Below, one piece after another: positions 24,152-28,182 of a stretch of 40,255 nucleotides of DNA (position 1 is its first letter; every line of letters starts with the position of its first letter). The position numbers and the translations under genes were made by a program. Source of the DNA: Nanobdellota archaeon (GTDB lineage: Archaea; Nanobdellota; Nanobdellia; Parvarchaeales; Parvarchaeaceae); contig JAJYWD010000005.1 in the NCBI GenBank assembly GCA_021791655.1, positions 1-40,255 on the forward strand. Direction: 5' to 3'. Under the pieces are notes generated by a model. That model was not told the DNA's origin and ran no database searches. It was given only the letters and a program-made list of their open reading frames with translations.

Positions 24152-24592
24152 TTAGCAGAATCCCCCGTGAACTTCCATCCTTATCCCCTTTCCCAGCTTA
24201 GAGAGGTACAGTACGCCGTCGTCGAAGTTGAAGAACTGGGGTGCTCTGAAGGACTGCCTGTTGGATTTCCTCTTGTACTTAGGGTGTTTCGACACGCCCT
24301 TGAAGAACGCCCTGAATGCCTTGTCCAGGCCCATCAGTGCCTGCTGAAGGGACTGCGAATCGGCTTCCTTGAGCCATTTGTATTCTTCCTTCTGCTTCAA
24401 TCCCTTCAAGAACCTAGTGGTATCGTAGTAGTTCAATCCTCTCTTTGATTTGTCGCCCTTATGCTCCTTGTAGTATTCTTCTCTTAACTCTAAAGCTTTG
24501 TTCCACATCATCCTGTTGCAGCCGAAGTATTTCGAGAAGAGGCTCTGCTGTTCCTTGTTGGGATACAACCTGAACTTGTATGCTGTCGGCAT
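24152..24592 (-). pseudogene. Truncated TnpB (IS605 OrfB) N-terminal fragment
   Basis: The 146-aa open frame is the TnpB N-terminus: MPTAYKFRLYPNKEQQSLF, CNRMMWNKALELREEY and SLQQALMGLDKAFRAFFKG (helix-turn-helix/OrfB start domain), then HPKYKRKSNRQSFRAPQF. It ends abruptly after LGKGIRMEVH. All RuvC residues, the zinc ribbon and the right end are missing, so it cannot cut DNA. Typical TnpB is about 400 aa. The breakpoint lies 11 nt before the AAA ATPase start. The left-end hairpin (copy D) is upstream at about 24665-24692. Confidence 0.8.
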
Positions 24593-26305: not shown

Positions 26306-26504
26306 GCCATCACTATGTACTCTCTCGGTTTAATACGTTTCTTTTTACTGTGAGAGGATCGCGATACGCGACTGCCTACCGTACGGGGATCGATGAGGAG
26401 GTAATTAATGCATTAAAGCTTTCTTTTGTCTTTTGGGGCGTGCAACGGAAATCCCTAAATGCTGGCGGAAAGCCTTAAATATGCCACGGCGTCATTAATG
26501 AACA
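26306..26504. other. Upstream region of hisS with short-ORF signals
   Basis: This 200-bp gap lies between the divergent pilin-like gene and hisS. It holds a strong Shine-Dalgarno (GAGGAGGT, 26395-26402) placed 5 nt before ATG CAT TAA (26408-26416), a start-His-stop minimal frame. A 42-codon GTG frame (26350-26478) also spans it. TATA-like TTTAATAC near 26332 fits the pilin-like gene on the reverse strand. None of these short frames can be proved functional. Confidence 0.35.
26475..26482 (+). promoter_or_regulatory. TATA box of the hisS transcript
   Basis: TTAAATAT is centred 26 nt upstream of the ATG at 26505, the same distance as for the ppa and RAM-domain genes. This predicts an mRNA starting at about that ATG, which makes the short leader frame the first thing translated. 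Confidence 0.55.
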
Positions 26505-26579
26505 ATGAGATTTGAAGCTTACAAAAGAAATGGGGAAACCGGTGCGATGATGGAAACTAGCGCCGGCTTAGTTCACTAA
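26505..26579 (+). CDS. 24-codon leader ORF in front of hisS
   Basis: ATG at 26505 sits at the expected transcription start and encodes MRFEAYKRNGETGAMMETSA... ending GLVH and TAA. Its last sense codon is a histidine codon (CAC). It is in the frame one base behind that of HisRS. The HisRS frame becomes open at 26572, just before this stop, so a +1 shift at CAC-TAA-G would fuse the two. A near-perfect inverted repeat covers the stop. It may be a true leader, or the real N-terminus of HisRS separated by an indel. Confidence 0.4.
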   Translation: MRFEAYKRNGETGAMMETSAGLVH

Positions 26580-26584
26580 GTCGG
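26563..26584 (+). repeat. Strong hairpin across the leader ORF stop codon
   Basis: CCGGCTTAGT (26563-26572) and ACTAAGTCGG (26575-26584) pair over 10 bp with one G-T, closing a tiny TC-centred loop. In RNA this is a stable hairpin exactly over the TAA of the leader frame and the only possible frame-switch point to HisRS. Confidence 0.6.
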
Positions 26585-26616
26585 GGACACAAAAGGCACC
26601 GAGCGACAAGAAAACT

Positions 26617-27927
26617 ATACTAAGGCAGCTGAAGGGTGTCAAAGAATTTCTGCCGGACGAACAGTCAAAACGTGAAAAGATTCTTGATGTCCTAAGATCT
26701 AGCTTCAAATTATACGGCTATAACCCGATAGAGACCGGCATATTAGAATATTATGACATAGCCGCGGGCAAATACGCCGGCGGTGAGGAGATACTAAAGG
26801 AAGTGTACAGACTTAAGGACGCCGGAGGAAGGGATCTTTGTCTGAGATACGAACTTACGTTCAAGCTTGCGAAGATTATAGCTCTTAACCGCGGCCTTTC
26901 GCTGCCTATAAAGCGCTATGAGGTTGGTAAAGTGTTTAGGGATGGTCCCGTAAAGGCTGGCAGAAGCAGGGAGTTCACGCAGTGCGACGTGGACGAGATA
27001 GGTACGGACAGCCTGATTGCGGACGCCGAGTTCTCCGCACTTACGAAAAGGGTTTTCTCGGAATTAAATCTCCCAATAATAATAAGATTAAATAACAAGA
27101 AACTCTTGTTTGGCCTGTTGGAAAAGGCAGGTATCCTGGAGAGGGAGTTCGTAAGCGCCGCTCTTTCCATAGACAAGCTGGAGAAAATCGGGAGAACTGG
27201 CGTTATATCGGAAATGGTCTCAAAGGGATTTACCAGAAGTTCCTGCGGGCGCCTATTTGGGTTAATAGAAACCGCTAACGCCGAAAAGGACAACACAAAA
27301 AAGCTGGCGCTCATAGAAGCGAAAATTGGCGAAAATGAAGGAACAAAAGAGTTACGAGACTTTCTTAGGTTTGCAAAGATCTTCGGCACTTACGAGATGA
27401 TAGAATTTAGTCCGACCTTATCCAGGGGTTTGGCTTACTATACCGGAAACATCTGGGAGATTTATGGGCGGGGCGGAACTGTCACCAGTTCGCTGGCGGC
27501 TGGCGGCAGGTGGGATGGGATGATAAACAAAATGTCTGGGGACAAAGGCTCCTACCCAGCGGTCGGCATGACCTTCGGCTTGGATGCTATTTATGATGCG
27601 TTAAATGCAAGGTCGTTCAGAAAGTTCATAAAGCGTAAAGATTCTTGCCCGGTACTTATGGTCGTTCCTATAGACACCGAGGAAGACTGCGTCAGCTTCG
27701 TATCCATGGCCAGAGATTATGGCATAAGGTGCGATATCGCACTCGGCATGAGCGTAAGAAGGGCGTTTGAGTTAGCGGATAAAAGAGCTATACCATTCAT
27801 GGGCGTGATAGGAAGTCGTGAAGCTGCCATTAAAACCGTAACCGTAAAAGACATTTCCTCCGGCGCATCTGAGACACTTTCATGGAAAGACGCAATTTAT
27901 AAGATAAGGAGAGTGAGGTGGCGTTAA
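26617..27927 (+). CDS. hisS: Histidyl-tRNA synthetase, start codon unclear
   Basis: HisRS charges tRNA-His. This protein is complete in its motifs: LKGVKEFLPDE at the start, motif 1-like region, motif 2 FRDGPVKAGRSREFTQCDVDEIG, the HisA loop SRGLAYYTGNIWEIYG, motif 3 AVGMTFGLDAIYD, and a C-terminal anticodon-binding domain (CPVLMVVPIDTEED, GIRCDIALG). Homology-like sequence begins about 26626, but between the in-frame stop at 26569-26571 and there I find no ATG, GTG or TTG. I give ATA at 26617 only as the nearest plausible near-cognate start. The alternative is a +1 frameshift from the leader ORF, or an indel error. It is followed 3 bp later by a small gene. Confidence 0.85.
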   Translation: MLRQLKGVKEFLPDEQSKREKILDVLRSSFKLYGYNPIETGILEYYDIAAGKYAGGEEILKEVYRLKDAGGRDLCLRYELTFKLAKIIALNRGLSLPIKRYEVGKVFRDGPVKAGRSREFTQCDVDEIGTDSLIADAEFSALTKRVFSELNLPIIIRLNNKKLLFGLLEKAGILEREFVSAALSIDKLEKIGRTGVISEMVSKGFTRSSCGRLFGLIETANAEKDNTKKLALIEAKIGENEGTKELRDFLRFAKIFGTYEMIEFSPTLSRGLAYYTGNIWEIYGRGGTVTSSLAAGGRWDGMINKMSGDKGSYPAVGMTFGLDAIYDALNARSFRKFIKRKDSCPVLMVVPIDTEEDCVSFVSMARDYGIRCDIALGMSVRRAFELADKRAIPFMGVIGSREAAIKTVTVKDISSGASETLSWKDAIYKIRRVRWR

Positions 27928-27930
27928 GAT

Positions 27931-28182
27931 ATGGGGGCGTGGATAATAGAATTCCTTGAACGGGACACAGACGAAGAGTCTGCACAAAAGAATAATAATC
28001 GCAATAAAAAGGTAAAGATGCGCGAGCTATGTGGCTTACTGGAAAAGGCAGGCTATGTAAGCGACTATAAAGTCACTAGAGTCTTAGATGCGTACAAAAA
28101 CCGCTATTGCGGCCTGAATTGCGATTATTGCAAAGAGAAAATTCTGGAATTATATATAGACACCAAAGCAAACTACGGATGA
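27931..28182 (+). CDS. Hypothetical 83-aa protein downstream of hisS
   Basis: This small, charged protein (WIIEFLERDTDEESAQKNNN) has a cysteine cluster CGLNCDYCKEK near residue 60-70 and one more cysteine (ELCGLL) upstream, which might bind zinc. I recognise no family. It starts 3 bp after the hisS stop, so it is probably made from the same mRNA. The 160 bp after it contain a CTGGCT/AGCCAG inverted repeat and the TATA box of ppa. Confidence 0.5.
   Translation: MGAWIIEFLERDTDEESAQKNNNRNKKVKMRELCGLLEKAGYVSDYKVTRVLDAYKNRYCGLNCDYCKEKILELYIDTKANYG

Follow-up and report, generated by a model that had tools for sequence, protein, structure and literature searches.

A histidyl-tRNA synthetase gene of a Nanobdellota archaeon that lacks a start codon and is probably entered by a +1 frameshift next to a histidine codon

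How can a histidyl-tRNA synthetase (HisRS) be made from a reading frame that offers no start codon? The question is raised by a gene in the window, as we call the whole stretch of DNA analyzed here (40,255 nucleotides, contig JAJYWD010000005.1 of assembly GCA_021791655.1), which belongs to a small archaeon of the Nanobdellota (family Parvarchaeaceae) with an assembly of 832 kb in 28 contigs that is 98.7% complete. An earlier sequence-only reading had proposed that the HisRS frame has no usable start after the TAG at 26569-26571, and this was borne out: no ATG, GTG or TTG precedes the conserved core, and the first start-like codon is the GTG at 26803, 77 codons in, where automatic annotation would begin the gene and drop its N-terminal part. 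Among 535 long non-overlapping ORFs of the genome, the start-less stretch of this frame is the fourth largest; the three ORFs that rank above it resemble shadow ORFs, and, by eye, most of the next-ranked ORFs start a recognizable protein at their first ATG. Moreover, HisRS searches led to 140 loci, a few of them retrieved twice, and in only two of these was a start codon absent before the core, namely the window gene and its counterpart in a second genome of the same genus (G027). A nitrilase-like frame elsewhere in the window genome (G000:C19:18216-19007, + strand) also has no start before recognizable sequence and is frame-broken near its end; by eye, and unlike hisS, it looks like a pseudogene or an indel.

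The best-matching model for the window HisRS is NF009085, yet its score of 408.8 lies below the curated cut-off of 540. The class II core is present, with the motifs LRYE/DLT, FRDGP...REFTQCD and (L/S)RGLxYY, together with the anticodon-binding domain, and on these sequence grounds we classify the enzyme as a second histidyl-tRNA synthetase of the PRK12420 type (NF009085 branch). An additional, ordinary HisRS is encoded in the same genome by a 404-codon frame (C24:121635-122798) that is 32% identical to the window HisRS, and family searches find this ordinary type throughout the genus. The window type was detected in only 3 of the 28 genus members searched: the window genome, G027, and G005, where it is a contig-end fragment. 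The G027 genome, 66% complete, yielded no convincing HisRS of the ordinary type, so that, as far as this completeness allows, the start-less gene could be its sole HisRS. As to histidine supply, no histidinol dehydrogenase was detected in the window genome by a search whose control was positive in 13 of 14 genomes, which suggests that histidine may have to come from outside the cell.

Some further observations concern the enzyme family and the surroundings of the gene. In the motif 3 region of the window hisS (27484-27603), as in PRK12420-type relatives, GLDxI stands in place of G(x)ER, and the arginine that class II synthetases typically carry in motif 3 is absent in nearly all aligned family members, although they keep the other HisRS motifs. 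The G005 copy (G005:C16:7149-7338), the third PRK12420-type HisRS of the genus, ends at a contig edge and has an ordinary ATG start; over the 58 residues compared, genes of Woesearchaeota and Micrarchaeota (L034-L036) resemble it more than the window copy does, and, judging by this affinity, it may be a separate acquisition. Directly 3' of hisS lies an 83-codon ORF without a Pfam match (27931-28182, + strand), and an apparently truncated ORF at 24152-24592 (- strand) resembles, by eye, a TnpB/OrfB transposase-associated protein in its N-terminal part.

We then considered what lies upstream of the HisRS frame (Table 1). The previously noted 24-codon ORF in the neighboring frame, ending in GTT CAC TAA, was found as described, and the HisRS frame is offset from it by +1. 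Its ATG at 26505 is preceded at -30 by the TTAAATA box. Across 268 long ORFs of the genome, TATA-like boxes peak at this same distance from the ATG, which is a mark of leaderless messages; the suggestion that the TATA box places the mRNA start at the ATG of this leader therefore agrees with the norm of the genome. The pattern of the conserved leader core occurs once in the window genome and once in G027, but neither in G005 nor in 370 further genomes of a phylum sample. No second leader copy was found in the window genome, nor any in the 371-genome phylum sample except the window itself, and a search of viral contigs returned no HisRS relatives.

Table 1. Features of the hisS locus, in window coordinates.
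Feature	Position	Strand	Remarks
BRE/TATA promoter element CGGAAA...TTAAATA	26466..26481	+	TTAAATA (26475-26481) 30 nt before leader ATG; kept in G027/L032
24-codon leader ORF, MRFEAYKRNGETGAMMETSAGLVH-TAA	26505..26579	+	Predicted to supply the beginning of the fusion protein; L032 counterpart equally long and with the same end
Leader conserved core G-A-M-x-E-x-S-x-G-L-V-H-stop	26541..26579	+	Pattern once each in G000 and G027
Hairpin, 9 bp, loop UUCA	26563..26584	+	Spans shift site; -15.1 kcal/mol, z -4.1 in window
Putative +1 shift site, GTT CAC TAA (leader) / TTC ACT AAG (HisRS frame)	26571..26579	+	TAG/TAA-bounded overlap
HisRS frame, 451 codons	26572-27927	+	NF009085 3.6e-122, Pfam PF13393 1.1e-32, also PF03129; predicted entry via shift
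Polar linker, shift site to HisRS core	26575..26619	+	Poorly conserved; in-frame length difference of 9 nt to L032

The strongest evidence comes from the second species, G027 (contig JAKBJF010000013.1, G027:C9, locus L032), in which the same arrangement is found. Its upstream ORF, MENKANKIFGEDGAMTESSTGLVH-TGA, likewise has 24 codons, shows no indel relative to the window leader and ends in GLVH-stop; HisRS again lies in the +1 frame without a start codon before its core, and a TATA box is located at -34. Thus, the alignment of hisS 5' regions that had been proposed as a check shows the frame break to be conserved, with the CAC-stop kept as CAC-TGA. The two HisRS proteins are 60% identical, and the distribution of their differences over codon positions 3, 1 and 2 (284, 139 and 103, respectively), with a dN of 0.32, points to strong purifying selection on the enzyme. 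In the leader, the residues G13, A14, M15, E17, S19 and the final GLVH are conserved between the species, and codons 2-9 are not. Furthermore, third codon positions are identical in 18 of the 24 leader codons (75%) versus 37% in HisRS, which is close to saturation (p about 1.5e-4). Leader codons 10-25 are so alike at third positions that, of 433 sixteen-codon windows in HisRS, just one reaches their identity. Synonymous changes affect the Gly and Leu codons near the leader end, and the stop changes from TAA to TGA. The Leu change (TTA/TTG) corresponds to TAG in the HisRS frame of the window and to TGG in that of L032, which argues that this upstream part is read in the leader frame rather than in the HisRS frame; the promoter position and this conservation suggest that the leader is translated. 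As the immediate gene neighbors of hisS differ between the two contigs, the conserved unit appears to consist of the leader and HisRS.

If ribosomes enter at the leader ATG, the place at which they could pass into the HisRS frame is narrowly bounded by the TAG at 26569-26571 upstream and the TAA at 26577-26579 downstream. The earlier proposal that a +1 shift is feasible only at GTT-CAC-TAA holds for GTT (skipping C26574) and CAC (skipping T26577), but a shift at the preceding TTA (skipping G26571) would also be compatible with the frames. An architecture in which a downstream frame without its own start overlaps an upstream frame in the +1 register fits both species. GTTCACT is identical in the two, whereas the stop (TAA/TGA) and the next +1 codon (AAG/GAG) vary, which favors a slip of tRNA-Val with CAC empty in the A site. 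Genes for tRNA-Val(GAC), tRNA-His(GUG) and tRNA-Thr(GGU) are present in the genome. A slip of tRNA-Val(GAC) from GUU to UUC keeps two of three pairs, in line with the previous remark that the surroundings of CAC are not classically slippery, and makes ACU the following codon, for tRNA-Thr to read; a slip of tRNA-His from CAC to ACU keeps a single wobble pair. Other genes show no depletion of in-frame GTT-CAC, with 21 occurrences against about 23 predicted by codon frequencies, so the pair is not strongly slippery alone and context or starvation must matter.

Altogether, we consider an obligatory programmed +1 frameshift at GTT-CAC-stop, most likely through a slip of tRNA-Val at a hungry His codon, to be the best account of this locus, with a probability of roughly 0.6. 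The frameshift option of the earlier reading is thus supported by the conserved frames, leader and GTTCACTRA motif, whereas the occurrence of the shift, its exact position and its response to charged tRNA-His are inferred. The leaderless mRNA would begin at ATG 26505, and ribosomes would translate the 24-codon leader to its Leu-Val-His-stop end; from there, the HisRS frame could be reached only by a +1 slip at TTR-GTT-CAC-TRA. With the P site occupied by tRNA-Val(GAC) on GUU, the CAC codon would stand in the A site and await charged tRNA-His. When this is ample, CAC would be read, termination would follow and little HisRS would be made, so that the backup HisRS would be produced on demand. When tRNA-His is uncharged, slippage would increase and with it HisRS: the ribosome would move by one base and read ACU with tRNA-Thr(GGU), giving a leader-linker-HisRS fusion. 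Given that the enzyme made is HisRS and that the leader has a single His codon, directly before its stop, feedback is the simplest function. Even so, the more specific proposal that this single codon acts as a histidine starvation sensor, deciding on synthesis of the backup HisRS, is put forward tentatively and falls somewhat short of even odds. The +1 arrangement is known from two species only, and the partial ortholog of G005, with its ordinary ATG, is a contrary case within the genus.

The contribution of the hairpin is less clear. A 10-bp hairpin had been described at the shift site; its position stands, whereas its stem consists of 9 contiguous base pairs plus one isolated outer pair. In L032, 8 of the 9 pairs are possible in the same register, but they amount to only -4.5 kcal/mol; the wider region folds preferentially in a different register, and its stability is unremarkable (z about -0.9). 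Four of the five stem changes keep pairing only via wobble or G-C repair. A conserved hairpin was rejected on the basis of this non-significant fold; being strong in the window and weak in the relative, the structure is not clearly part of the mechanism, and a ribosome at the shift site would melt it.

Other explanations have to be weighed against a tRNA-Val slip at the hungry codon. Stop codons serve as pause sites in known +1 shifts, e.g., those of prfB and antizyme, and here, too, a stop directly follows CAC in both species despite the change from TAA to TGA; ribosomes pausing there with tRNA-His in the P site could therefore shift at a fixed low rate, without sensing histidine, and provide a low and constant level of HisRS. 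However, tRNA-His(GUG) pairs very poorly with ACU, the post-shift codon varies next to an invariant GTTCACT, and no internal Shine-Dalgarno-like element is seen upstream of the site by inspection, so we regard a stop-dependent shift as unlikely. The prfB-type combination of CUU-UGA-C with an internal Shine-Dalgarno element is likewise not what inspection found in the two species, both of which have TTR-GTT-CAC-TRA. We give somewhat less weight still to non-AUG initiation, or termination-coupled re-initiation, of HisRS, with the leader as a coupling or attenuation peptide. The AUA or near-cognate start raised earlier draws on ATA codons before or near the core in both HisRS frames, and on an AUU in L032, but the nearest of these AUA/AUU codons do not occupy homologous positions; where relatives have the ancestral ATG of M-x-L-R-Q-L-K-G, inspection of the alignment shows ACT for the window and AAT for L032; and the promoter fits a leaderless message beginning at the leader ATG.

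It is very unlikely, in our view, that the leader acts chiefly as an arrest peptide, GAMxExSxGLVH, that stalls the ribosome at the leader end, possibly in response to a ligand, and thereby drives the frameshift or controls the message. This would explain why GAM, E17, S19 and GLVH are conserved and codons 2-9 are not, as the conserved stretch would sit in the exit tunnel, but conservation of third positions is needless for an effect of the peptide only. A sequencing or assembly indel, which the earlier reading had treated as a serious alternative, or a decaying pseudogene, might be suspected from single metagenome-assembled genomes and from the frame-broken nitrilase-like ORF on C19; nevertheless, the frame break, the leader and the missing start recur in a species whose HisRS is 60% identical, with strong purifying selection over the whole enzyme, and we reject this explanation as scarcely credible. 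Some archaeal pre-mRNAs can be spliced at bulge-helix-bulge motifs, and such an intron could join the frames at the RNA level; no frame-restoring motif was found in the window and none is common to both species, even when 2-bp flanking helices are admitted, which leaves this explanation with a negligible chance. Stop-codon readthrough in the HisRS frame was discarded because the window TAG is TGG in L032 and thus not a conserved recoded stop, and transcriptional slippage because there is no homopolymer at the junction. Regarding cis-regulators, the upstream region gave no T-box or other Rfam match above any gathering score, and no T-box was found near 20 bacterial homologs.

In its working, the proposed frameshift comes closest to that of bacterial prfB (release factor 2), in which a first ORF of about 25 codons is followed by a +1 shift near the gene start that is controlled by the product's own reaction. 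Both would share the short first ORF, the early shift and control by the reaction that the product performs. They differ in that the product here is a synthetase and the sensor would be a His sense codon before the stop; in addition, the window site has no CUU-U slip and no visible internal Shine-Dalgarno element, and archaea lack RF2. The slip itself resembles hungry-codon frameshifting in E. coli, in which an A site left empty at the codon of an uncharged tRNA lets the ribosome slip (reviewed in PMC5009743 and PMC8211752). That phenomenon is known mainly from reporters and starvation studies, whereas we propose a conserved control of a synthetase gene; its natural use has been discussed as possible but unclear, and a likely +1 case in archaea is mentioned only for an archaeal virus (PMC5009743). 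The locus also resembles fucA1 of Sulfolobus (Saccharolobus) solfataricus, likewise a cellular gene of an archaeon divided between two overlapping frames, in that CAC codons and a stem-loop lie close to the shift, but fucA1 uses a -1 shift on A-AAA-AAT; a 2021 review gives no other reported programmed -1 frameshift from archaea and, in the parts consulted, describes no demonstrated +1 case for a cellular gene of an archaeon (PMC8211752). As in attenuation of the his operon type and in T-boxes, low charged tRNA would raise the matching gene, sensed via codons or via the tRNA; these systems, however, control transcription or initiation and leave the gene its ordinary start codon, which is missing here. 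In a literature search with limited coverage of subscription journals, we came across no synthetase said to be regulated through a frameshift.

Hardly any programmed frameshift has been documented in a cellular gene of an archaeon: the 2021 review PMC8211752 gives one case, of the -1 kind. If real, the shift described here would be the first +1 frameshift reported for such a gene. As the frame architecture has been kept while HisRS third positions fell to 37% identity, the proposal is directly testable by reporter. If the His codon is indeed the sensor, hungry-codon slippage, often viewed as an error, can be harnessed to control a synthetase, and the locus would then represent a class of synthetase feedback distinct from T-boxes, attenuation and operator mimicry.
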